DNA of 64,000 nucleotides from Anaerotruncus sp. G3(2012) (GTDB taxonomy: Bacteria > Bacillota > Clostridia > Oscillospirales > Ruminococcaceae): NCBI RefSeq assembly GCF_000403395.2, contig NZ_KE159657.1:358538-422537 (forward strand), written 5' to 3'. The position numbers were made by a program, and so were the translations under genes. A model generated the notes under the pieces. It saw only the letters and a list, made by a program, of their open reading frames with translations, was not told the origin of the DNA and made no database searches. The number at the start of each line of letters is the position of its first letter. Positions within the stretch are counted from its first letter, which is position 1. This document shows, piece by piece, positions 3,211 to 60,447 of the stretch.

Positions 3211-3396
3211 TCAGATGTGAAAATGCCGGATACAGGCCAGCAGGGTATCGTAAAGGTTCTGCATCAAGTCCTCGTCAAAGGTCCCCTCAATACTGCTTTC
3301 CTTGACGATCAGCCCCCGGTAGAGCTCCAGGATCACCCGGAGCGCATCTTTATCCCCCAGCTGAGCCTTCATCAAAAGCCGCTTAAAGCCTTTCAT
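3211..3396 (-). CDS. Small helix-turn-helix protein, conjugative-element type
   Basis: A 61-residue acidic protein, MKGFKRLLMKAQLGDKDALR..., resembling the short helix-turn-helix proteins that accompany a sigma-like factor in Tn916-family elements (orf8-like). The pattern of short helices around LGDKDALRVILELYRGLI looks like sigma region 1.2/2 helices. It overlaps the preceding gene by 14 bases (ATG at 3396 inside its 3' end after GGAAGGAGAGG), so the two are translated together. It probably helps control element gene expression. No stronger family assignment is possible by eye. Confidence 0.65.
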   Translation of the reverse strand: MKGFKRLLMKAQLGDKDALRVILELYRGLIVKESSIEGTFDEDLMQNLYDTLLACIRHFHI

Positions 3397-3856
3397 CCTC
3401 TCCTTCCTCCTCCATATACCTTCTCAGTTTTTTGATGGTCCTGGCGTAGCATTGCTCCACCGTGTTCGTCCTAAGCCCCAAAATGGCTGCAATTTCAGCG
3501 TGCTTCATCTTGTGGACCAGGTGCAGGTTCAGGATCTTCCGTTCCCGGTCGCTCAGCTTCAAGACGGCGATCAGCAGCTGGTCGCTGCAGATCACTTCCT
3601 CCAAGGCCCCGTCCCGAAGGATCCGTTCTACCTCGTCCTCATAAACCGCCAGGTTCTTATCCAAAGGGCCGCCCGGCATCTCCTCCTGCCGGTCCAGCAA
3701 TTCGTCCAATGATGTCACCATCCTTTGATGCTCGTAGTATTTCATCAGGTACTTACCCTTTCTGCGCCGGAGCGCAGTGAGAAAATACGCGGTAAACTGG
3801 TTGTGGAGCCGTTCGTCTTCGGCTTCTTCTGCCAGGATATTTCTGTTGTCCTCCAT
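3383..3856 (-). CDS. Sigma-70 region 4-like regulator
   Basis: A 157-residue protein ending with a clear sigma region 4: LSDRERKILNLHLVHKMKHA, then AEIAAILGLRTNTVEQCYAR, a helix-turn-helix that contacts the -35 box in true sigma factors. The N-terminal half is charged and lacks a recognisable region 2, so it is either an accessory sigma factor or a transcription activator of the Tn916 orf7 type. ATG at 3856 follows AAAGGAGTCCGGTAT. A hairpin in the leader (3868-3898) includes the first bases of that ribosome site. It is co-transcribed with the 3396-3211 gene. Confidence 0.75.
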   Translation of the reverse strand: MEDNRNILAEEAEDERLHNQFTAYFLTALRRRKGKYLMKYYEHQRMVTSLDELLDRQEEMPGGPLDKNLAVYEDEVERILRDGALEEVICSDQLLIAVLKLSDRERKILNLHLVHKMKHAEIAAILGLRTNTVEQCYARTIKKLRRYMEEEGEDERL

Positions 3857-3867
3857 ATACCGGACTC

Positions 3868-3898
3868 CTTTGCACATTTTTTGCGGGAATGTGCAAAG
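3868..3898 (-). promoter_or_regulatory. Leader hairpin masking the ribosome site of the sigma-like gene
   Basis: On the minus strand CTTTGCACATT and AATGTGCAAAG are perfect 11-base arms with a nine-base loop. The 3' arm runs into the AAAGGAG ribosome site of the gene that starts at 3856, so folding would hide part of it. Confidence 0.55.
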
Positions 3899-8300: not shown

Positions 8301-10529
8301 CTAAGCGGAAATTTTGCTTTTTCCGGCGTTCATCTGCCGGTAATAGGAGACGATCCGGTCGGCCAGCAGGGTATTGCGCCGATCCACATCATTCCTATCA
8401 ATGGCGATATAGAGCGCCTGCTTCTGTCCCACCAGGGACACCTGCTGCTTTGCGCGGGAGACCGCCGTGTAGAGCAGGTTCCGGCGCAGCATGATGTACT
8501 GGTCCTTGAGGATGGGGATGATGACCGTGTGGTACTCGCTCCCCTGGCTCTTGTGGATGGTGGTGGCGTAGGCCAGCTCCAGCTGGGAAAGCTCCTCAGC
8601 GGAATAGTCCACCGCCCGTTCATCGGAAAACAGCACCCGGACGGTGTCGCCCTCCTCCTCATCCTGGGTGATGCTGACGATGAGCCCCACATCCCCGTTA
8701 CTGACGGCCTCCCGGTTTTTGGTCTGGATCACCTTGTCCAGTTCCCGGAACACCTGGGCGCCGTATTTGATCTCTTTCTTGCAGGGGTCCGGCGGATTGA
8801 TCCGCTTCTGAATTTCCTCGTTGAGCCGCTTGACGCTGCATTCGCCCCGGCTGCGGAAGGGGGCCAGGATCTGCACCTCCAGCAGGTTCTGGTGGGTAAC
8901 AGCCTCCTGATAGACAGCCAGGACGATCTGCGCCGCTTCATCCGCCTGTTCGGCGGGCAGAAAGCGGAAGTCCTCTCCATAGGCCAGGGAATCCTTGTCC
9001 CCTTCGTTGATGGTATGGGCGTTCAGCGCAATCCGGCTGGCATTCTTCTGGCGGTAGGCGATGTCCAGGTGGACGGTGGGGATCAGACGGCACCGCAGCA
9101 GCTCCCGCAGCACATTGCCGGGGCCCACCGAGGGCAGCTGATCCGGGTCACCCACCAGAAGAAGCTGTGTCCCTGTTTCGACGCGGCGGAACAGCTCTGC
9201 CGACAGCCGCATATCGATCATGGAGACTTCGTCCACGATCACCAGGTCGGCCTCCAGCGGTATGCTGCCGCCGAAATATTCCTCGCCGTCATTGGCATAA
9301 AGACCCAACGCGCTGTGGAGCGTAGAGGCCGCCGGGTGCCCGGTGGATTCCACCATCCGCCTGCTGGCCCGCCCTGTGGGGGCCGCAAGAAGGATCTCCC
9401 CCTTGGGTCTGACCCGTTTGTAGATGTCCAGGATCACCCGCAGGGTGGTGGTCTTGCCGGTACCGGGGCCGCCGGTGATGATGCTCAGGGGGCTTTTGGC
9501 CCACATCCGCACCGCCTCCGCCTGTTTTTCCGAAAGGGTCAGGCCAAGGGACCTTTGGGAACGGGCAAGCTCCGCATCCATATCCGCCGGCAGGCTGTTT
9601 TTGTCGGAAAGCATCTGCAGCACCTTGCGGGCCACATCCACCTCCGCCTTTCTCAGGTCGGGCTTATACACCCGCTGAATATCGCAGAACAGCTTTTTCT
9701 CCGCCAGAAGCTGGTTTAGCCGCGCCTCCACAACGGGGCGGGTGACCTCCTCCTGGGGCAAGCCCTCGTTGAGCAGCAGGTGGGCCTTTTGCATCTGTTC
9801 CTCATAGGGGAGGAACAGATGCCCGGCCTGCTCCGCCTCGTCCAGCAGGTAGCACAGCCCGCCGCCGATCCGCAGAGGGTCGGTGGGGCTGCACCGGACC
9901 GCGCGGGCGATGGCGTCCACGATCTTGAAGCCGAAGCCGCGGATCTCGCAGAGGCGGAAGGGCTGGTTCTGAAGGATGTCCATGGCGTTTCCGCCGAAGG
10001 CTTCCAGCACCTTAGCCGCCTTTTTGACGCTGATCCCGTAGGGGGAAAGGCGGGCCACAATGTCCCGCAGCGCCCGGCTGTCCTGAAAGGAAAGCCGGAT
10101 CTTCTCCAGCTTCTGGGGGGAGCTGCCGCGGATACGCAGCAGCTCCTCCGGCCGGTTTTCCAGCACCTCCATCGTCTGGAGCCCAAAGACTCCATAGATG
10201 GCGGCGGCCATTTTGGGCCCGACGCCCTTGATGAGCCCAGAGCTCAGATAGCCGATGATCCCCTCCTTGGTCTGGGGGACCAGCTCCCGGAAGGACTCGA
10301 CGCTCAGCTGAAGGCCGTACTTGCTGTCCTCCCACTGGCCGGTGATCTCGAAATCCACTGCGTCAGTGGTGGGCAGGTTGTAGCCCTTGGCCGTAAAGAC
10401 CGGCCGGCCCGCAACAGAGAATTTGCTGTGCGCCGCCAGCGGCAGACCGGGGTCAGCCGTAATATACCGGCAGATGGCAAACCCGTTTTCCTTGCTCTGA
10501 AAAATGGTGCTGTGCCAGGTGCATCTCAT
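8301..10529 (-). CDS. recD2: RecD2-family helicase (SF1B, 5'-3')
   Basis: A 742-residue DNA helicase working in repair or element replication. Seen in order: N-terminal domain, helix-hairpin-helix repeats (LIKGVGPKMAAAIYGVFG), Walker A GGPGTGKTTTL at about residue 350, Walker B VIVDEVSMID, motif III VGDPDQLPSVGPGNVL, and the C-terminal YTAVSRAKQQVSLVG of motif VI. The length matches RecBC-independent RecD2 of Gram-positives. ATG at 10529 overlaps the stop of the preceding gene as ATGA, fixing the start and showing coupled translation. In this operon it sits with a YqaJ exonuclease. Mobile elements carry RecD2 copies beside the chromosomal one. Confidence 0.93.
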   Translation of the reverse strand: MRCTWHSTIFQSKENGFAICRYITADPGLPLAAHSKFSVAGRPVFTAKGYNLPTTDAVDFEITGQWEDSKYGLQLSVESFRELVPQTKEGIIGYLSSGLIKGVGPKMAAAIYGVFGLQTMEVLENRPEELLRIRGSSPQKLEKIRLSFQDSRALRDIVARLSPYGISVKKAAKVLEAFGGNAMDILQNQPFRLCEIRGFGFKIVDAIARAVRCSPTDPLRIGGGLCYLLDEAEQAGHLFLPYEEQMQKAHLLLNEGLPQEEVTRPVVEARLNQLLAEKKLFCDIQRVYKPDLRKAEVDVARKVLQMLSDKNSLPADMDAELARSQRSLGLTLSEKQAEAVRMWAKSPLSIITGGPGTGKTTTLRVILDIYKRVRPKGEILLAAPTGRASRRMVESTGHPAASTLHSALGLYANDGEEYFGGSIPLEADLVIVDEVSMIDMRLSAELFRRVETGTQLLLVGDPDQLPSVGPGNVLRELLRCRLIPTVHLDIAYRQKNASRIALNAHTINEGDKDSLAYGEDFRFLPAEQADEAAQIVLAVYQEAVTHQNLLEVQILAPFRSRGECSVKRLNEEIQKRINPPDPCKKEIKYGAQVFRELDKVIQTKNREAVSNGDVGLIVSITQDEEEGDTVRVLFSDERAVDYSAEELSQLELAYATTIHKSQGSEYHTVIIPILKDQYIMLRRNLLYTAVSRAKQQVSLVGQKQALYIAIDRNDVDRRNTLLADRIVSYYRQMNAGKSKISA

Positions 10530-10983
10530 AGTTCCATACACCAGCTTTCGATCTTCAGATCCGGCATCAGCAGAATTGGTTTCCCCAGTGAGATTCCATA
10601 AGCAATCTCCTCTGCCATGCCTTTGGAGATGGTATTTCCGCAAAGAACGATGCCGTCGCAGAAAAAGAGCAGCTTACGGCCAAAGGACAGGGCAAGCGCA
10701 CGATCCGCCGGGATGTAGTCATTTAATATTCGCGGCAGCCATAATGCGCGGCGGTTTCCCGCATATATTGCCGGGCCTTTCTCATGTTGGCTTCGATCCC
10801 CTCCGGAGAGGGGGCGGATGAGGGCGAACAGACATAGAGCTTTTGGTATGTCACCGGCCCCGTTTTACAGGCGATGAATACCGTCCGACCGCTGGGCAGG
10901 AACCTGGCGGCTGTTTTGCCTTCTCCCAAATCAGTCAGTTCAAAGGCCTTCCCGTAGTATCGGGAGAGCTTGGTTGGCTGCAC
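10526..10983 (-). pseudogene. DUF4406-like / nucleoside deoxyribosyltransferase-fold protein, one frameshift
   Basis: About 152 residues in two frames. The first (GTG at 10983 after AAGGAGGTGAGCCAT) includes KLYVCSPSSAPSPEGIEANM and MRKARQYM; the second continues LNDYIPADRALALSFGRKLL, FFCDGIVLCGNTISKGMAEEI, and GISLGKPILLM. Together this is the Rossmann-like layout (Y-CSP-N--AR-Y; D----GD-IS-GM--EI--A) of DUF4406 proteins related to nucleoside 2-deoxyribosyltransferases. The frames join near 10725, where GAATATTAAATGAC would be in frame with one more T. The stop TGA overlaps the RecD2 start. Probable role in nucleotide handling; unproven. Confidence 0.65.
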
Positions 10984-10996
10984 ATGGCTCACCTCC

Positions 10997-12031
10997 TTAT
11001 GCGGTTTCCAGCTTTTTGACCGCAAAGCTGCGGCTTTCGCTGGTAGTGGCGTACTGGTCATGAATATCCGGATGGTCAAGCCGCAGCCGTTCCAGTTCGT
11101 CCTTCTTGATACTGGTCTTGCTGGTGGGCTTGTAGGTCACCCGGTACTCGGTTTTCCCATCGGTGCAGATGGCGGCGCAAGCCTGGCCCATCCGATCCAC
11201 AATGGGGGCATAGACGCCCTTGATCTCCTTTTCCAGCTCCCGGCCCCGCTTGTCCAGCGCCTGCTTCTCCTCCCGGAGCTTCAGGCACTGCTCCAGCCGC
11301 AGGGCGTCCGCAGAGGACAGGGTGATCTGCGGCAGGGAGGGGTCGGCCTTGCCCTGGTAGCGCCGGATGCTCTCCAGCACCAGGTCTCCGGATTCGGTGT
11401 AGGGCGGCTCCACATTGGCAGCTACAAAGTCCTGCCAGAAGTGGGCCAGCTCCAGAATGGTCATCTCCTCCTCCAGGTCCCGGTCGATCTCCCGCATGAG
11501 GAAATCCCCCTCGGAATTGCCGAACAGGCAGGCGAAGGCGCAGAAGTCCAGATTGGTGACAGACAGGTAGTGCTTCCCCTGCACCTCGTAGTGCCGGGGG
11601 ATACCGTCGTCCGCCCACCGGTCCTTTGCCATAAAGCTGGAGGTCTTGCATTCCAGCACGCCTCGTTTACCGTTGGGCTTCTGGACGAAGTAATCCACAT
11701 CGGCGATCATAAAGGGGTAGAGGGGGTGCTGGAAGATCTTGCGGATGGGATAGACAGTATAGCCCGTCTTTCTCCGGTAGATCTCCGCCACCAGCTCCTC
11801 CAGGCGATGGCCCACCTCCTTGGCGACCCAGTTGCTTTCATCCGGCTGCATAGGCTGCACGCCGGTCTTTTCATAGAACAGTTCCCGCCTGGTTTTCCAG
11901 GGGGAGATGCCCAGGACCGCCGCCACATCGCTGCCGCCGATGCCCTTGGTGCGCTCCCGGAGCCATTCTTCCTCGGTGAGCTGCGTGATGTCCTCCACCA
12001 GAACAGACGGCTCATAGTTCAGGTCTAACAT
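10997..12031 (-). CDS. YqaJ-family (lambda exonuclease-like) recombination nuclease
   Basis: A 344-residue nuclease. The N-terminal RTKGIGGSDVAAVLGISPWK, followed by ELFYEKTG, is the YqaJ signature, and PFMIADVDYFVQ with GVLECKTSSFMAKDRW supplies the Asp and Glu-x-Lys of the PD-(D/E)xK active site; HYEVQGKHYLSVTNLDFCAF follows, as in viral YqaJ recombinases. The C-terminal third is a coiled, charged region. Such enzymes resect 5' ends for a partner annealing protein, for which the 8243-7301 gene is the candidate. ATG at 12031 follows AAGGAGGGAGCATC. Likely co-transcribed with the gene before it (50-base gap). Confidence 0.9.
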   Translation of the reverse strand: MLDLNYEPSVLVEDITQLTEEEWLRERTKGIGGSDVAAVLGISPWKTRRELFYEKTGVQPMQPDESNWVAKEVGHRLEELVAEIYRRKTGYTVYPIRKIFQHPLYPFMIADVDYFVQKPNGKRGVLECKTSSFMAKDRWADDGIPRHYEVQGKHYLSVTNLDFCAFACLFGNSEGDFLMREIDRDLEEEMTILELAHFWQDFVAANVEPPYTESGDLVLESIRRYQGKADPSLPQITLSSADALRLEQCLKLREEKQALDKRGRELEKEIKGVYAPIVDRMGQACAAICTDGKTEYRVTYKPTSKTSIKKDELERLRLDHPDIHDQYATTSESRSFAVKKLETA

Positions 12032-12080: not shown

Positions 12081-13193
12081 CTAGTGCACCTTCAGGGCAC
12101 GGGAGATGTTTTCTTCCATCTGGGCCACCCTGGGGGCGCTGGCTCCGTCGCACTGGAGCAGGAACTCCGCTTCGCAGATCCCCAAATACAGGTCGTAGGC
12201 CGTGCAGGGGCGTTCCCCGTTTTGGGCCTGCCAAAGCTCCGCAGCCCGGTAGGCCAGACGCTTGGTGACGCCGACACGCTTCATCACCCGCAGCATGGTG
12301 TTGTAGGGGTAGTCGATGCCGGTTTCCATCAGCTTCCCCAGCCGGGCGATGGCGTCGCCGTACTTGGGATAAAGCAGGGAAAGCTGCTTTTTGAAATCGG
12401 CGATACTCGCCTGGTTGCTGTGTTCCAGACAGAGGGCGCTCCCCAGGGCAACGCTACGGCCGGACTTCTCCTCCATCAGCATGGGGTAGAGATTCGCGCC
12501 GCTGATCCCCACATCCGAGGTGGAAAAGCGCAGGGCCGGGACGAACTGCCCGGCATAGACACCGTGCTTTTTGGCAGTTGCCTCATATGCCTCCACCAGC
12601 TCCCGGTTGTTGGGAAAGGACCAGATCGCCGTCATCATGGCGTGTTCATAGTGACCGCTGATGAACCGGCAGCTCCCGAAATCCGTATCCAGCTGGTCGG
12701 TGACCGCCTGGAACAGCTCCGGGATCTCCAGCACCGCATACTCGCTCTCGTCCCCGCCGTGCATTGCCGAAATCTTTTCATTGCTCAGGCGCAGCAGGGC
12801 GTTCCCGCTGGCCACACTGACGCAGTGGTTGAGGATCTGGGCCAACACCGGTTTGCTCACCTTGCTCAAAGCGTGCCCGGAGATGCGGGCACGGCTGAGG
12901 ATGGTGGACAGGGCGCAGCTGCGTACCGGGTAAAGGGCGTCCTCCGCCCGGAGGAGCAGCTTGGTATTGGCCATGGTGTCCTGGAGGATCCCCTCCTTGC
13001 CCATCAGCCGGTACCAGTCGCAAAGGACCTTGCTGGAGGTGGAGCCTTCGTCAATGGCCTCAAACCGCACCTCTCTGGTGGGGATGGAGCGCCAGGAGGC
13101 GTTCTCCTCCCGTTCCCGCAGGAACTCCAGACACTCCTGTTGTTCTCCAAAGCTCCTGGAGAAGTTGTCCGCATAGCACATGGTTTCGCTCAT
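12081..13193 (-). CDS. DUF932-like hypothetical protein under the leader-RNA promoter
   Basis: A 370-residue protein, first gene after leader RNA copy 1. It has VPALRFSTSDVGISGANLYP and GSALCLEHSNQASIADFKKQ, in the style of phage/plasmid DUF932 proteins, but I am not certain of the family. No membrane segment is seen. ATG at 13193 lies after AAGGCGGAAAACAGA; an in-frame ATG at 13259 sits in the leader terminator and is unlikely. The stop at 12081 is 50 bases before YqaJ, so it probably heads the recombination operon. Position suggests a role in element DNA metabolism. Confidence 0.6.
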   Translation of the reverse strand: MSETMCYADNFSRSFGEQQECLEFLREREENASWRSIPTREVRFEAIDEGSTSSKVLCDWYRLMGKEGILQDTMANTKLLLRAEDALYPVRSCALSTILSRARISGHALSKVSKPVLAQILNHCVSVASGNALLRLSNEKISAMHGGDESEYAVLEIPELFQAVTDQLDTDFGSCRFISGHYEHAMMTAIWSFPNNRELVEAYEATAKKHGVYAGQFVPALRFSTSDVGISGANLYPMLMEEKSGRSVALGSALCLEHSNQASIADFKKQLSLLYPKYGDAIARLGKLMETGIDYPYNTMLRVMKRVGVTKRLAYRAAELWQAQNGERPCTAYDLYLGICEAEFLLQCDGASAPRVAQMEENISRALKVH

Positions 13194-13256: not shown

Positions 13257-13307
13257 CAAAAAAAGAGCGGAACCGCCCGGAGGTTTCCTCCTGGGTCAAT
13301 TCCGCTC
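13257..13307 (-). terminator. Second terminator hairpin in the leader before the DUF932-like gene
   Basis: On the minus strand GAGCGGAA ... TTCCGCTC with an inner GGAGG-AAA-CCTCC, then TTTTTTTT. It lies between leader RNA copy 1 and the coding region, so two intrinsic terminators stand between promoter and gene. The ssb terminator at 57636-57680 has the same two-storey shape. Confidence 0.8.
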
Positions 13308-13337: not shown

Positions 13338-13442
13338 GAAAAAAGCGCCAACAGGGTACAAAGACCCCACTGGCGCTGCTTTACAAAAACTTCTACCTGG
13401 GTACCGCCCTCAGATGAGGGGGATAGCCTAACAACAATTTGC
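13338..13442 (-). ncRNA. Leader RNA copy 1 (structured, ends in terminator)
   Basis: Minus-strand transcript of about 105 bases from the promoter at 13449-13478. It starts near 13442 with AGAGCAAATTGTTGTTAGGC, then CCCTCA-TC-TGAGGG hairpin, GGTACCCAGGTAGAAG, and a terminator GCGCCA...TGGCGC with T run (13345-13376 stem). The same parts occur in the same order before ssb (58196-58317), with the hairpin loop changed and an extra stem inserted in the second copy. This is either a small RNA or an attenuation leader. I cannot match it to a known RNA family from memory. Confidence 0.7.
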
Positions 13443-13448
13443 TCTTTT

Positions 13449-13502
13449 AGTTTACCATATACTATATCTTGTTGTCAATAAAAATAATCGACTATATATA
13501 GT
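13449..13502 (-). promoter_or_regulatory. Promoter and palindromic operator of leader RNA copy 1
   Basis: On the minus strand TTGACA (13478-13473), 18-base spacer containing GATATAGTATATGG, then TAAACT (13454-13449). The perfect palindrome ACTATATATAGT (13491-13502) lies exactly 12 bases upstream of the -35 box, the same distance as in copy 2. The cargo gene LysR ends only 21 bases beyond the palindrome. Confidence 0.8.
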
Positions 13503-13522
13503 GAAAATTGGATATTGACCTG

Positions 13523-51692: not shown

Positions 51693-53753
51693 CTACGCCA
51701 CCCGAACATACCGGGCGATCAGCCTGGCCAGGTTCTGGGGCAGCTGGTTCAGATCGGTGATGTCCAGATACCCCTCCTGGTAGATGCGTTCGATGTTCTC
51801 CCGGTCGTCCCCGATCGCCGCAGCGAACAGGGTGACACCCTTGTTGGTGTACTCCCGGCGGATACCCCGCAGGTCGGCTTCCGCCCCTGTTCCGGTATAT
51901 CCGTCATCGTTTGGCTGCCCGTCTGAAATAAGGATCAGCAGCTTGTGCTGCTCCGGCCGCTTGACCAGCTGCTCCGCCACATAGCGCAGGGCGGCGCCGT
52001 CCCGGTTGCAGCCTCTCGCGGACATATCCATCATGCGGTAACAGTCCTTGCCGTCGATGGAGCCGAATTCAGCGTAGGAGAAAAGCTCCACCTGCTTGCC
52101 GCCTGCGGTATGGCCCATGATCATCACGGGGATACGCGGCCTTTTGCAGAAGTCGTAGATGACGATGCTGGCCGCCCGCGCCGTAGTGATCCGGTCCAGA
52201 CAGCCCATGCTGCCGGATTCATCCACCAGCAGCGCTACTGCCAGCTCCGCCTTGTCCTGGGGCAGATTGTTCTTGTAAAAATACCGCCCATCGTTTCGCA
52301 CCAGGCTTCTGGCCTCTAGCCGCCGGCCCATCAGAAGGCCATTTTGTTTGCCACCCTGCCTGCGGTCCTTCAGCACCTGCAGCACCTGCTTCTGCATCCG
52401 TTTGGAGAGCAGCAGCAGGGGCGCCGAAATTCGGCTGTATTCCTGAGCCAGATATTCCGGCACCATACTCATCCGGTTCACCGTCACATGGATGCCCAGA
52501 TGGGCATTCCCATAGTGGATATGGTTGGCTTCTGCCTGGAGTTCTTCGGTAAGCTCCTGTTCCATCCGCGTGTTGACACGGTCCTCCGCCACACTGGAGA
52601 GCAGCCGGTCGATGTCCTTCCCGCATTCCTCATACCCGGCCCCGCCGTAGTTCTGGTCGAAGGCGACAGAACCACCGGTCTCGGCCTCCGGGTCAGCGGT
52701 TTGGGTCAGGGCGATGCGGTCGCCGTCCTGCTCGCTCACCCCGTTCACATCGAACCGGCTGTTGGGGTCGTTTTTCTCCTTGGGGGCGAAGTAGCCCACC
52801 GGCCGGCCACTTCCGTTGGGGGCGTTGGAGGTCTCCTGAAGCTGCTCAGAAAGCTGCTGCAAGACCTCCTCCGGCGGCTTCTTCCTGGCCTCCTCGATCA
52901 GAGGCGCCAGATAGTCCCACAGCTTCAGCAGGATGTGGTTGACCGCATCAAACCGGACACGGGGATCCTCCGCCAGCTTGCTGTCGTCTATGTAGGGGAT
53001 GCAGCCGTTCAGCACATCCAGAAGCGGCCCCCGGTATCCATCCACATTGTTGACGGTGCCCTGGAAGCAATACTGGATCAGCAGGTTCATCAGGATGGAC
53101 AGCTCGCCCATCTGCCGGTCCTGCATTTCTGTAATGCTGATGCTCTGTTCCCCCATTCGCTGCCGGTTGATAAGGATACCGGTCCGCAAGCGGCCGGGGA
53201 AATTCCGGCACATCTGTTCCTCGATATAGGTGTCCTCCGACAGATTGCAGAGGGTATGAGCCACATAAGCTACCACGGACAGAGCAGCCTTGTCGCCGTC
53301 TGCCGCAAACTGCTGCAATTCCTCCACCGCCTTTTCCTCCGCTGGCGTCAGGTTTTTCATCCGCTTTGGATAGAATCTTCCCTGATCCAGTGCCCGATGG
53401 TAGGTGGAAAGGGCCCGGAAGTCGGTGTAGTTGATATGCCCGGCTTCATGGGCCAGCATTCCCACCAGACTGAGGGCCTTGGTCTCTCTGACCGGGAAAC
53501 TCATGGTGATATGATTCCCTGTATTGATGGTGATGGTATGGTTGTCGGTCCAGGCGGCGTCCGCTCCGGGGTCGGTATCCCAAAAGGTCTTTACCCGGAA
53601 GGGCCGCCCATACCGCTTGGCCACTGTCTCCCCAATGTCCGAGAGATAGGCCGCAAAGGCCGGGGAAGAAAACAACTCCTCATCGGTGATCCTGCCCTTT
53701 TCGTCCAGGATCCTTTTTCTGATCTCAAGATGAGAGGTCCCCATCTGCATCAT
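51693..53753 (-). CDS. VWA-domain protein with HExxH motif, MoxR partner
   Basis: A 686-residue protein. AHEAGHINYTDFRALS (His-Glu-x-x-His, about residues 102-106) suggests a zinc site near the N-terminus. The C-terminal VWA domain has the MIDAS set LLVDESGSMGCLDRITTARA, then GHTAGGKQVELFSYAEFGSI, and LILISDGQPNDDGYTGTGAE. This matches the VWA half of AAA/VWA chaperone pairs such as CobS/CobT and GvpN-type systems, with the MoxR-like ATPase encoded just upstream. It also carries a long acidic, low-complexity middle. ATG at 53753 shares ATGA with the XRE gene stop. Confidence 0.86.
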   Translation of the reverse strand: MMQMGTSHLEIRKRILDEKGRITDEELFSSPAFAAYLSDIGETVAKRYGRPFRVKTFWDTDPGADAAWTDNHTITINTGNHITMSFPVRETKALSLVGMLAHEAGHINYTDFRALSTYHRALDQGRFYPKRMKNLTPAEEKAVEELQQFAADGDKAALSVVAYVAHTLCNLSEDTYIEEQMCRNFPGRLRTGILINRQRMGEQSISITEMQDRQMGELSILMNLLIQYCFQGTVNNVDGYRGPLLDVLNGCIPYIDDSKLAEDPRVRFDAVNHILLKLWDYLAPLIEEARKKPPEEVLQQLSEQLQETSNAPNGSGRPVGYFAPKEKNDPNSRFDVNGVSEQDGDRIALTQTADPEAETGGSVAFDQNYGGAGYEECGKDIDRLLSSVAEDRVNTRMEQELTEELQAEANHIHYGNAHLGIHVTVNRMSMVPEYLAQEYSRISAPLLLLSKRMQKQVLQVLKDRRQGGKQNGLLMGRRLEARSLVRNDGRYFYKNNLPQDKAELAVALLVDESGSMGCLDRITTARAASIVIYDFCKRPRIPVMIMGHTAGGKQVELFSYAEFGSIDGKDCYRMMDMSARGCNRDGAALRYVAEQLVKRPEQHKLLILISDGQPNDDGYTGTGAEADLRGIRREYTNKGVTLFAAAIGDDRENIERIYQEGYLDITDLNQLPQNLARLIARYVRVA

Positions 53754-54014
53754 CCTTTCCTGTCTTCTAAAAATTCGGAGACCGGCACGCCGAAATACTC
53801 GGCAGCGGCGCATACGAACCACAGGGGGATCGCTACACGGCCAGTCTCATAGTTCGCCAGCGTTGCCCGGCTGACCTTCAGCCGCCTGGCAAGCCGTTCC
53901 TGAGATAACCTTGGGGATCTGCTCAGCCGCAGTTCCTTGAGCCTTTTGGCAAAAAGTTCGTTGTTCAGGTACGGGTCAAAGGCTTCCGGTATCTTTACTT
54001 TTCCATTCTTTCAT
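53750..54014 (-). CDS. XRE-family helix-turn-helix regulator with a frame problem at the start
   Basis: About 80 residues. RLKELRLSRSPRLSQERLAR and LKVSRATLANYETGRVAIPL form a clear XRE helix-turn-helix, ending EFLEDRKG. The ATG with a good ribosome site (AAGGAGGTGAACAGG, 54014) is out of frame by one base; GAATGGAAAAGTA near 54005 would be in frame with one A more or less. It lies between the MoxR-like and VWA genes, overlapping the VWA start as ATGA. Likely autoregulator of this pair. Confidence 0.7.
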
Positions 54015-55523
54015 CCTGTTCACCTCCTTTACCTTCTGGCGAAGATGGGCTCCAGGCAGGTATTGATCAGCTCCTCCCGGTTCTCCGGGTCCGCTGAGGC
54101 GGAGGAGATCACCGTATAAAGGGCCGATTCAAATGGGTTGCCCAGGATCATCGCCGACTGCACCCAGGAGATCAGCTCCCGGACTCCGCAACTCCCGTCC
54201 TGGATCATCGTTTCCCTGCACCGCTGCTGGATGTCCCGCACCACCTCCGCCATCTGCCGCACCAGCTTCTGGTCGGAACAGCCGGTGATGCCCGCCACGC
54301 GCTTTACCGTGGTGTCCACATCCGGCTCATCGAAGTCGATGGTCAGGTTCATCCGGCTGATGACACTCTGGTTCAGATCCTTGCAGCCCTCATAGCTGGT
54401 GTTGGTGGTCACCACGACCACCGTTTCCGGGTGCCGCTGGATCCGCTCCCCGTTGGGCAGCGTAATGGAAGCGCACCGGTCCAGCAGGGAGTTGAGCCCT
54501 ACCAGGACGCCGGGATTGGCGATCACCGTAGGCTCCTGAAGCTCCACCAGGTAGCCATACCGCATGGCCTTGACCAGCGGCGTGTCCACATAACGGAAGC
54601 TGTTCCCGTTTAAGCCGTCTCCCAGTTCCTGAGCCTTCAGCTCCACCATCTTCTGAAGGACCTCGTTCTCGGTGACATCCTCCCGGTATTCCCCGGTCAT
54701 CTGGCAGTAGGCCGACGCAGGGTCCATCTGGATGTCCATCAGCAAGGGAAGGCCGGAGCAATTCGCCGCCTCCGCGTCCATCTTGGGAAGCACCTGGCCC
54801 AGCAGGTCGAACACCTCGGTGTTGGCCGAACAGGTGAGGAAGGTATAGGGGATCCCCAGCCCGGCGGCAATAGCCTTGGCTCCCTCCGTCTTGCCTGTCC
54901 CCGCAGGCCCCCTGAACATGATGTTCCGCATGGGATTCTGGGAGCCGGTGGTCTGAGCAATATGCCGGCAGACCTGCTCCACCTCCTTGGGGATCACATA
55001 CCAATCCGGCAGGACCGGGATCATCCCTGTTTCCGCCGGGGAAAAGCCGCGGTTCGACATCCGGTGCTGCCCCGCAAAAGAGCTGTGGGCGATCACCACC
55101 GATGGCGCACCGGGGGCTGAGCCGGGCTCGAAGATCTGAAACTCCCCGTACAGAACAGCGGTGGGCGCGTAGGTGTTGTTCGCCATGGCCATCTCGGTCA
55201 GCTGGGAGAGATTCCCGGTGCTGGGAATGTCCACCTTGACGCCGTCCTTCCGCAGCGCAGCATGGTTCTCGATCCGGCGGTAGACATTATCGCACAGCAG
55301 GATCGCCGCCCGCGAAGCGGAGTCCAGGTCGGGATACCCGTTTTTGGCCGCCTCGCAGAGCTCCTTGAACCCTTCTGAAAATTCGTCATCGTCCAGGAAC
55401 AGGGGCATCAGGGTGAACAGCAGGGCATCCCCGCTACAAGCGGTCTCGCCGATAGTGTAGACTCCCGGCGGGTCGCCGGGGGTGCGGACGATCCCTGCGG
55501 TGAACCGGCAGTTGCGCTTATTA

Positions 55524-57516: not shown

Positions 57517-57703
57517 TGTCGATTAGAAATCGACGATACGCACGCTGCGCGTGCTGGCATCGTTGCGCGCTGCCCCGTCCCATCGAAAAACCTGCAAATT
57601 GGAATAATCGGTTTTTCGGATCGGACATAAAAAAAGAGAGGAACCATCATCCCGCCTTTGCGGGTCTGACAATTCCTCTCAATTTTCCCTCCCGTCCATT
57701 GGA
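57517..57703. other. Intergenic region after ssb with terminator
   Basis: No gene is seen. The ssb terminator lies at 57636-57680, and a small hairpin GTCGATT-AGA-AATCGAC at about 57518-57534 stands before the membrane-protein gene. Confidence 0.5.
57636..57680 (-). terminator. Terminator after ssb
   Basis: On the minus strand GAGAGGAA ... TTCCTCTC with an inner CCCGC/GCGGG stem, then TTTTTTT. It has the same two-storey shape as the hairpin at 13265-13307. Confidence 0.85.
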
Positions 57704-58123
57704 CTAAAAGGGCAGCTTATCTCCGGAAACCCGGATCTCCTCGATCTCATCGTTTCCGGTATTGGGCGGCTGCTGTGCCGCCGGGGGCTGTGGCTGTACC
57801 TCCTTTTTCCCGCCGCTGGGGACATACTCCAGGTCGTACAGCGTGATTTTCGGGGCCATCCCCTCGCTGCCATCCTTGCGCTTAAACTTTTCCAGTTCCT
57901 GCGCGCCGATGACATGGACCAGGGATCCCTTGGCCGCCTTCAGCTTGAGGATACGGTCCCTGACGCTTCCGAAGGCGATGCAGCGGTACCAGTCGGTCTC
58001 CTTTCGGTCGCCGAATCCCCGGTCCACCGCAAGGTCGAACAGGATGTATTCTGTCCCCTTGAGGCTCACCTTCTGCTCCGGGTCGTTCCCAAGCCGTCCA
58101 ATGGCGCTGATTGTAGTGATCAT
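57704..58123 (-). CDS. ssb: Single-stranded DNA-binding protein
   Basis: A 139-residue OB-fold protein: TISAIGRLGNDPEQKVSLKG, FDLAVDRGFGDRKETDWYRC, then a Pro/Gln-rich tail ending SGDKLPF, the partner-binding tip of SSB. Coats single strands during element replication or recombination, alongside YqaJ, RecD2 and LigA elsewhere in the backbone. ATG at 58123 after GAAAGGAGCAGAAA. It is the first gene after leader RNA copy 2, so its expression depends on passing that leader's terminator. Confidence 0.93.
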   Translation of the reverse strand: MITTISAIGRLGNDPEQKVSLKGTEYILFDLAVDRGFGDRKETDWYRCIAFGSVRDRILKLKAAKGSLVHVIGAQELEKFKRKDGSEGMAPKITLYDLEYVPSGGKKEVQPQPPAAQQPPNTGNDEIEEIRVSGDKLPF

Positions 58124-58191
58124 TTTCTGCTCCTTTCTTGCCTGCCGGCATATTGTATTTGCAAAACCGTGGACGCGGTGTTTACCAAAAG

Positions 58192-58317
58192 AAAAACGCC
58201 AACAGGGTATAAAGACCCCACTGGCGCTACACAGTATCAATCTTTAGATTGACACCTATAAAAACTCCTACCTGGATACCTCCCTCAAAGTGAGGGGATA
58301 GCCTAACAACAATTTGC
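58192..58317 (-). ncRNA. Leader RNA copy 2 (structured, ends in terminator)
   Basis: Minus-strand transcript of about 125 bases: AGAGCAAATTGTTGTTAGGC, CCCTCA-CTT-TGAGGG hairpin, GGTATCCAGGTAGGAG, an extra stem TCAATCT/AGATTGA not in copy 1, then the terminator CGCCA...TGGCG with a TTTTT tail (stem 58197-58226). Parts shared with copy 1 (13338-13442) are nearly identical; differences lie in loops. It ends about 70 bases before the ssb start. Confidence 0.7.
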
Positions 58318-58323
58318 TCTTTT

Positions 58324-58377
58324 AGTTTACCATATACTATATCTTGTTGTCAAGCAAAACAAATTACTATATTTAGT
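58324..58377 (-). promoter_or_regulatory. Promoter and palindromic operator of leader RNA copy 2
   Basis: TTGACA (58353-58348), 18-base spacer, TAAACT (58329-58324) on the minus strand. The near-palindrome ACTATATTTAGT (58366-58377) lies 12 bases upstream of the -35 box, as in copy 1, and 10 bases past the stop of the XRE gene. Confidence 0.8.
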
Positions 58378-58387
58378 GCCCCACTTT

Positions 58388-58723
58388 TTATTCCCACTTC
58401 GCAACCATCCGAATAAAGGCCAGAATATCCCCCTGCTGCTGCGAGCTGAGCTTGCCCATCTGCCGCTGCAGGTCCAACCATGCGTTTTCGTCCAGCCTGC
58501 CGGTCCGATATTCCCGAATATCCACAAGCTCGACCAAGGACACGCCCAGCCCTTTCGCAACACGGTCAAGGGTCTGGACGGTGGCGTTGCTCTCCCCGCG
58601 CTCCAGCTTGCTGAGGGGAGCGGCATCGATGCCACAGCGGCCGGATAACTCCTCCAGGCTGAGGCCCTGCCCCATACGAATGGTGCGGATGTTGTTGCCA
58701 ATCTGAACAAGAATTCCTGCCAC
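58388..58723 (-). CDS. XRE-family regulator, likely controls the leader promoters
   Basis: A 111-residue repressor-type protein: NNIRTIRMGQGLSLEELSGR, CGIDAAPLSKLERGESNATV and QTLDRVAKGLGVSLVELVDI are the full XRE helix-turn-helix. The C-terminal tail (LQRQMGKLSSQQQGDILAFI) is probably for dimerisation. GTG at 58723 has GGAGGTGATACA before it; this site lies in a hairpin (GTATCA ... TGATAC). The stop is 10 bases before the operator of leader copy 2. That makes it the best candidate for binding both palindromes; this is inference from position. Confidence 0.85.
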   Translation of the reverse strand: MAGILVQIGNNIRTIRMGQGLSLEELSGRCGIDAAPLSKLERGESNATVQTLDRVAKGLGVSLVELVDIREYRTGRLDENAWLDLQRQMGKLSSQQQGDILAFIRMVAKWE

Positions 58724-59461: not shown

Positions 59462-60019
59462 TCAGGAGACCAATTTCAGCAATGTCTGGTCCTGTAAAAG
59501 CCGATGCTGTGCCCTGGAGATCCACGCGCTGACATGGTTGGGCTTCACACGGTAGAGCTTTGCGATCTCCGAGCCGGAAAGGCCGTCCAGCTTGAGCCCC
59601 ATGGCCTGGATCCCCTTGCGTACCGTTCCCTGGTACCGCTCCTCCAGCGCCTTCAGCTCTTCGCGGTTCATCCGGTTTTCGGCCTCATAAACAACATTAG
59701 CCTCATCCGCCAGGGACTCCGAAAACGAGAGCCCGCCATCGGTCTCATATTCCATGGAAAGGGTTTTCGGATTCCGGCTCAGGTCTTTGAAGTGGTGGAG
59801 CAGCTGGTGCCAGATCACCTCCCGCGCATAGGCGGGGAAGGGGCGGACGCCGTCATAGCCCTGTGCGGCCAGGCACAGCCCCAGCCGGCCGATCTGCTGT
59901 AGATCCTCCAGGTCGTGGTCCGGGTCACAGGGGTTCCGTTTCACCCGGTAGTAGATCACTTCATTGACCAGGTTCAGGTTTTGAACCACCAGGTCCTTTT
60001 GCTCCAAGGTCATTTTCAC
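59462..60019 (-). CDS. Sigma-70-like protein
   Basis: A 185-residue protein. DLEDLQQIGRLGLCLAAQGY and AYAREVIWHQLLHHFKDLSR resemble sigma region 2, and GLSGSEIAKLYRVKPNHVSA with WISRAQHRLL is a region 4 helix-turn-helix. Unlike the 3856-3383 protein it has both parts and could be a real alternative sigma factor for element promoters. GTG at 60019 is preceded by AGGAGGTATCACC; ATG at 60013 is also possible. Confidence 0.78.
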   Translation of the reverse strand: MKMTLEQKDLVVQNLNLVNEVIYYRVKRNPCDPDHDLEDLQQIGRLGLCLAAQGYDGVRPFPAYAREVIWHQLLHHFKDLSRNPKTLSMEYETDGGLSFSESLADEANVVYEAENRMNREELKALEERYQGTVRKGIQAMGLKLDGLSGSEIAKLYRVKPNHVSAWISRAQHRLLQDQTLLKLVS

Positions 60020-60042
60020 GGTGATACCTCCTTTCCTCGCTG

Positions 60043-60447
60043 TCAGCTTGCAATCCAGTTTGCCCGCAATGCCTTTTGGCATTCGCGGATCAGATCGTCG
60101 CAGATATAATCCGAAAAACAGGCGATATGCGCCTGGTCCTCCCGCAGCCCGTACTTTTCCCGCAGCCACCGGTAGGCGTTGGCCCGGCTCATGATCCGAT
60201 GGCGCCAGATCTGGTCGAAGGCCCGGTGCGCTTCAATCCTTTTGTGCCGCAGGTCGCCGTTGGCCAGCGTCCCCATGGGCTCCCTGGTCTTTTCGTTGGC
60301 GGATACATAGGCGTCACACTCCGGGTAATGGGAGCAGACATACAGGTAACGGCCTCTGCCCGCATCCTTATGGACAAAGCTGTCCGGGCGCAGCACTGCG
60401 GGGCTGCCGCAGTAGGGACAAATGGGATTCCTTTTTCTTTTAGACAT
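60043..60447 (-). CDS. DUF3268-family zinc-finger protein
   Basis: A 134-residue protein. ICPYCGSPAVLRPDSFVH and YLYVCSHYPECDAYVSAN form a zinc ribbon; LANGDLRHKRIEAHRAFDQI, SRANAYRWLREKYGL and AHIACFSDYICDDLIREC complete the DUF3268 layout. Common in phages and mobile elements of Firmicutes, function unknown. ATG at 60447 after AGAAAGGAGTAATCGA. The next IS lies just upstream. Confidence 0.82.
   Translation of the reverse strand: MSKRKRNPICPYCGSPAVLRPDSFVHKDAGRGRYLYVCSHYPECDAYVSANEKTREPMGTLANGDLRHKRIEAHRAFDQIWRHRIMSRANAYRWLREKYGLREDQAHIACFSDYICDDLIRECQKALRANWIAS

Follow-up and report, generated by a model that had tools for sequence, protein, structure and literature searches.

Organization of the locus

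The window analysed here, a stretch of 64,000 nucleotides from Anaerotruncus sp. G3(2012), carries a mobile DNA element of a gut bacterium in which one type of leader RNA stands before both a DNA-repair operon and an ssb operon. The left end of the element is probably at 1206-1664, where a tRNA gene lies beside a fragment that matches phage integrases. Two proteins with sigma-70-like regions are also encoded by the element on the minus strand, one at 3383-3877 (region 4) and the other at 59462-60169 (region 2). The DNA-repair operon and the first copy of the leader consist of the following features, in the order of transcription:

13491..13503, minus strand: AT-rich palindrome CACTATATATAGT, a candidate operator judging by its sequence
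13449..13478, minus strand: promoter of copy 1 by promoter match, with -35 box TTGACA at 13478-13473, 18-nt spacer and extended -10 box TGgTAAACT at 13457-13449 (10 of 12 consensus matches)
13338..13447, minus strand: leader RNA copy 1, to the U-run of T1 (120.3 bits with model R1, which was built from copy 1 itself)
13399..13428, minus strand: hairpin I, from folding and alignment
13393..13405, minus strand: box GGTACCCAGGTAG, the first bases of which form the 3' arm of hairpin I
13344..13377, minus strand: intrinsic terminator T1 (14 pairs; dG -20.8)
13265..13307, U-run to 13258, minus strand: second terminator T2 (dG -31.9)
12081..13193, minus strand: first gene of the operon, with a predicted fold resembling phage DUF932 proteins
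10997..12031, minus strand: YqaJ-like recombinase (Pfam PF09588, 9.9e-30)
8301..10643, minus strand: RecD2-like helicase (Pfam HHH_RecD2, AAA_30)

A preliminary description of this DNA had placed a promoter, a leader RNA with a hairpin and a conserved box, and a terminator before this operon at 13338-13502, and all of these are present there on the minus strand; the second terminator, T2, is an addition to that description. Judged from the promoter alone, the transcript of copy 1 would start near 13442. A promoter-match scan found no plausible promoter downstream of T1 or T2 in copy 1, where a weak promoter-like site at 13243-13216 (9 of 12 matches) would place the RNA start inside the ribosome-binding site. 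The label "DUF932-like" given earlier to the first gene is not borne out by Pfam or NCBIfam, in which the gene has no family match, but it agrees with the predicted fold (pLDDT 78), for which the best named match among phage DUF932 proteins has an E-value of 1.1e-12 and a TM-score of 0.69. The same structure has no match in the PDB at E 0.001.

The second copy of the leader and the ssb gene string are arranged as follows:

58366..58378, minus strand: AT-rich near-palindrome CACTAAATATAGT upstream of the promoter, a candidate operator by sequence
58324..58353, minus strand: promoter of copy 2, with TTGACA at 58353-58348, 18-nt spacer and TGgTAAACT at 58332-58324 (10 of 12 consensus matches)
58189..58322, minus strand: leader RNA copy 2, to the U-run of T1 (153.7 bits with R1, which was built from copy 2 itself as well)
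58274..58303, minus strand: hairpin I, from folding and alignment
58268..58280, minus strand: box GGTATCCAGGTAG, by sequence
58234..58256, minus strand: extra hairpin, from folding, which copy 1 does not have
58195..58228, minus strand: intrinsic terminator T1 (14 pairs; dG -17.7)
57704..58123, minus strand: ssb (54.2 bits against Pfam SSB when the longer frame is used)
57636..57680, U-run 57635-57629, minus strand: terminator directly after ssb, within the gene string (dG -30.6)
54029..55408, minus strand: AAA_5 ATPase (44% identical to its counterpart at locus L097)
51693..53822, minus strand: CobT-type VWA protein (the equivalent protein at L097 is 52% identical across 353 aa)

The second set, reported before ssb at 58192-58377, was confirmed at about 58189-58378 on the minus strand, and no plausible promoter was found between its T1 and ssb in the promoter-match scan. 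The terminator after ssb is strong, is likewise absent from the preliminary description, and lies 139 nt before the next start codon; no promoter match was found in this gap, which could in principle hold one. As the two identities listed show, the ssb gene string of the window is related to that of L097; the genes directly after ssb are only weakly alike. The palindromes CACTATATATAGT and CACTAAATATAGT each lie about 13 nt upstream of their -35 box. A Cro/C1-type HTH protein (Pfam HTH_3) is encoded at 58388-58723 on the minus strand, ending just upstream of copy 2, and could be the binder of the AT-rich palindromes before both promoters.

The type A leader

The RNA of the window itself is referred to as type A, and both of its copies went into the covariance model R1. 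As described previously, both copies contain a hairpin (CCCTC/GAGGG), a GGTAYCCAGGTAG box and T1, with a leader length of about 105-130 nt. An unbroken run of 60 bases, reaching from the -35 box into hairpin I, is identical in the two copies; beyond T1 their alignment is poor. Compared with shuffled sequences, the whole RNA folds well in both copies (z -2.65 with 4 of 200 shuffles for copy 1, z -4.25 with 0 of 200 for copy 2). Once the terminator is removed, copy 1 folds no better than its shuffles (z -0.12), while copy 2 cut inside T1 has a z of -2.63. The earlier observation that stems are kept, loops differ and copy 2 has an extra stem holds literally, but two-sided changes are found in none of the 35 stem pairs. 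The selection on RNA structure that was proposed from it is thus not supported for type A, as the four intact sequences lack paired base changes (0 of 35 pairs) and pair in 98.4% of cells, no more than in shuffles. At the level of sequence, type A copies are too alike to prove or disprove a structure.

The earlier statement that the leader matches no known family agrees with Rfam (release 15), in which nothing exceeds the gathering score. The tRNA alone was matched in the Rfam scan of the window, and the best score in the leader region was 23.1 bits against a threshold of 45 (ctRNA_pGA1). Homologues exist, but they are few, with five distinct sequences in all. R1 located type A in 4 of 396 family genomes, and a pattern scan of GTDB contigs gave 18 matches, four of them real by their flanks, in records named Pseudoflavonifractor, Angelakisella and Oscillospiraceae. 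One of four copies, L016, has no -35 box. The source genome holds a third, decayed copy with a broken T1 on another contig (L003, 1501-1640), with part of an ssb gene and reading frames resembling transposases after it. A blastn search with the type A leader in 100 relatives gave matches in its own genome alone, and none were found in plasmids, phages or viral contigs.

Several candidates were set aside. Of 14 weaker R1 places (32.5 bits or less), eight were inspected in alignment, and in these either the match comes from the terminator or many of the pairs are broken. Part of L016 resembles a T-box sequence, but these bases differ between copies and have no Rfam match. Pairing of the box with the T1 loop, suggested by a C to U change with G to A between copies, amounts to a single change that an internal loop of hairpin I explains as well.

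Homologous operons with other leaders

Homologues of the first gene occur in 10 of 297 family genomes and 8 of 394 order genomes (the source genome being counted in both), and at four loci on viral contigs. All of the 19 loci examined have one or more terminator-like hairpins ahead of the first gene, a count made without a matched control and including a locus cut by a contig end (L061) and some near-duplicates. The pairing of the first-gene/YqaJ/RecD2 operon with ssb, first noted in the window, recurs in other Clostridia elements, but with unrelated leaders. Two further types were defined, type B (L011-L015, L059, L063, L065 and L066) and type C (L017, L018 and L062). Other leaders stand at L060 and L067-L070, with L067 and L068 representing a further terminated leader type with hairpins of its own. 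Each of types A, B and C is found before ssb and before the same first-gene family. Rfam gave no leader above threshold at the type B and type C loci.

In type B, hairpin I shows two-sided changes in five of seven pairs among eight sequences. Across 18 distinct copies, 24 two-sided cells were counted against 9.5 in shuffles, a value reached in 0 of 500; the number of covarying pairs alone was reached in 28 of 500 shuffles, and the alignment was fitted to the structure. A model of the type B leader alone, without terminator or protein (R2), was searched against 19 genomes or records and found 13 further places. Two were judged false (L089 and L081), and of the remaining 11, six lie before ssb and one before a gene for an NAD-dependent DNA ligase. 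At least five type B copies lie within 29 kb on one strand of a single contig in one genome (G575); such copy numbers per genome (five for type B, ten for type C) are lower bounds, since few candidates were scored per genome. A search of 371 class genomes with R2 added seven new places. Three of them precede first-gene homologues, whose proteins are 67-71% identical to those of type B; two precede ssb, one lies ahead of a different gene and has T1, and one, L135, was judged false and left out of the counts. By contrast with the RNA model, which found the others, a protein search for ssb homologues in 11 genomes (E 1e-8) recovered the source genome alone.

T1 follows the type B leader in 18 of 18 copies (17 tabulated, the 18th at a locus edge and seen in L059) and, by eye, in six of the seven new places of the class genomes. 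Before first genes, T2 ends about 28-50 nt ahead of the start codon in six of seven complete type B copies.

Type C reaches the highest copy numbers. The leader of L018 occurs at least 10 times on one contig of genome G002, and model R3 finds it at least 10 times in G014; in each genome the copies share a strand and span about 53-56 kb. All 20 of these copies have T1, and T2 was called in 9 of 10 (G002) and 5 of 10 (G014). One copy, carrying T1 only, precedes an ssb gene (Pfam SSB). Within the set of ten from G002, 5 of 12 pairs in the leader and 4 of 14 in T1 show compensating changes. Support is weaker over all twenty copies, with 4 of 10 pairs (reached in 36 of 500 shuffles) and 8 cells against 3.2 (0 of 500); paired changes are less well supported in type C than in type B.

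By eye, types A and B seemed likely to share an origin, but this was rejected: R2 gives no match at the window leaders, and in a block-score test the score was reached by 425, 355, 215 and 410 of 500 shuffles. R3 finds nothing in the window up to E 10. Taken together, R2, R3 and the block test detect no common sequence among types A, B and C, nor a shared RNA motif. What the types have in common is position. First-gene copies of all three carry T1 and T2 (G682 being unclear), and ssb copies have a single T1 before the gene in eight of nine cases, the ninth (G575, L092) having an extra weak overlapping call. Judging from these sequences, the layout outlives the leader: homologous operons in other Clostridia elements start with unrelated leaders that end in predicted terminators.

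A promoter, about 105 nt of RNA and a terminator make up a complete small-RNA gene, and the leaders might accordingly be read as independent genes of this kind that lie upstream of operons by chance and whose products work in trans, perhaps as antisense RNAs or decoys. The faint resemblance to ctRNA_pGA1, which stays below the Rfam threshold (23.1 bits, with 45 required), would fit such a role. However, the copies examined sit directly upstream of a gene on the same strand, no plausible operon promoter follows T1 or T2, and ten copies per element would be odd for a trans-acting RNA, leaving this explanation quite improbable.

Terminators and the apparent need for read-through

The preliminary description argued that, as each leader ends in a terminator, some signal must let polymerase pass, and the two leader copies of the window, each ending in T1, support this. 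In four type B elements, 22-32 nt separate the end of the terminator after ssb from the following start codon, which leaves no room for a promoter. With T1, often T2, and the terminator after ssb in the path of the transcript, read-through seems needed. Terminators within 45 nt before a same-strand start codon number 9 of 59 in the elements versus 14 of 187 in control chromosome, a difference that is not significant (Fisher p 0.12), so the case for read-through rests on the conserved positions of the terminators rather than on their number.

One way to account for these terminators is as leaky insulators, in which a promoter is followed by terminators that block outside transcription and let a fraction of polymerases leak through, the leader having no specific role as RNA. 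The type A copies, which do not covary, are compatible with this, as is the control chromosome, which also has terminators close before genes (14 of 187). On the other hand, type B hairpin I covaries (0 of 500 shuffles), conserved unpaired sequence is found in the leaders of all types, and leakage through two strong terminators in series would be costly. Leaky insulation is considered improbable.

A structured leader followed at once by a terminator is also the classical layout of a conditional attenuator, in which T1 would be formed by default and its formation prevented, operon by operon, by a ligand, tRNA, small RNA or protein acting on the leader. In copy 1, part of the leader can indeed pair with the 5' arm of T1 (-15.3 kcal/mol versus -19.9 for T1; z -1.12). 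However, leader and T1 arm do not pair more than expected by chance in type A (mean z -0.40, n 4) or in type B (mean z +0.87, n 17), a result that argues against an attenuator of the classical kind. Attenuation, for which there is also no Rfam family above threshold, would furthermore leave T2 and the terminator after ssb unexplained, and is regarded as unlikely. With respect to protein factors, a search for a second NusG found one NusG in each of six genomes (drawn from outside the type C genomes), indicating that these six have no LoaP-type paralogue.

Comparison with known antitermination systems

In phage lambda, several RNA sites (nut) in one genome serve several operons, with the N protein being required. 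The leaders described here are similar in that several RNA sites per genome stand before several operons.

RNA-based antitermination is known from few systems, those named in the literature cited here being put, EAR and canT. In phage HK022, two related put RNAs (putL and putR) of about 70 nt with stem-loops follow two early promoters and enable polymerase to pass terminators, and put is described as binding the E. coli polymerase (PMC9378689). Like put, the leaders are short, promoter-proximal structured RNAs present more than once per genome (two and a remnant in type A, at least 10 in type C). Unlike put, to which they appear to be dissimilar in sequence and host phylum, they reach at least 10 copies in a genome (type C), their terminators follow directly after the leader, and their activity is predicted. 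The canT element of Tn916 is described as a cis-acting, orientation-specific RNA antiterminator in a Gram-positive integrative element, the DNA-processing genes of which are insulated by terminators; it is a 452-bp region, one per element, that lies apart from its terminators until excision, and its read-through extends to unrelated terminators (PMC11658703). The leaders here, in contrast, measure about 65-100 nt, adjoin T1 and occur once per operon. The conAn system of pLS20, which has a protein part, ConAn1, and serves a single operon, is reported to give rise to processive antitermination where a conjugation operon with internal terminators begins (PMC8955417). The terminators after ssb (22-32 nt from the next start codon in four type B elements and 139 nt in the window) are candidates for such internal terminators, although the overall count is not significant against control (p 0.12). 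The leaders here stand at several operons rather than at one. Should the reading as antitermination be right, the leaders would work like canT, conAn and put. A literature search found no paper on such leaders.

Proposed mechanism and its implications

The best explanation, held tentatively and with a likelihood slightly short of even, is that the leaders are antitermination sites of the nut, put or canT kind, one per operon, acting as RNA alone or with a factor. The sequences themselves show the promoters, leaders and terminators, the positions at which these recur, the covariation of the type B leader and the presence of several copies in an element. The inferred parts of this explanation are that the terminators work, that the leader RNA causes read-through, that there is an insulating role, and any trans-acting factor. 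Each leader would be the start of a real operon transcript. Hairpin I and the conserved single-stranded box, made just after the promoter, would mark the elongating polymerase, either by RNA alone (as in put and canT) or through a recruited factor (as in nut and conAn). A polymerase marked in this way would read past T1 and T2 and past terminators further on, for instance the one that follows ssb, while polymerases arriving from outside or from chance internal starts would have no leader RNA and stop at T1 or T2. With one leader type before several operons, control could be element-wide.

A more specific form of antitermination, which is considered somewhat unlikely, is a switch that covers the whole element. 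Two to ten nut-like leaders would be acted on together by a single factor that the element encodes, or by the RNA itself, and as long as this factor is absent the terminators of each leader-bearing operon would halt its transcription. On this view, types A, B and C would have arisen through at least two events of replacement, or of divergence too great to be recognized, while the arrangement at ssb and at the recombination operon persisted.

Two RNA families, neither of which had an Rfam match above threshold, gain usable covariance models from this analysis. The recurring layout points to an element-wide, RNA-based reading past stop signals, as far as can be judged from sequence. If antitermination is the correct reading, three unrelated leader families, whose copy numbers per element go up to at least 10 and which keep their places before ssb and the recombination operon, would offer many natural variants of a mode of regulation known from few systems. 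They would also suggest that terminator-gated expression is common in the mobile elements of Clostridia, and would open a way to study what keeps these elements silent in gut bacteria.
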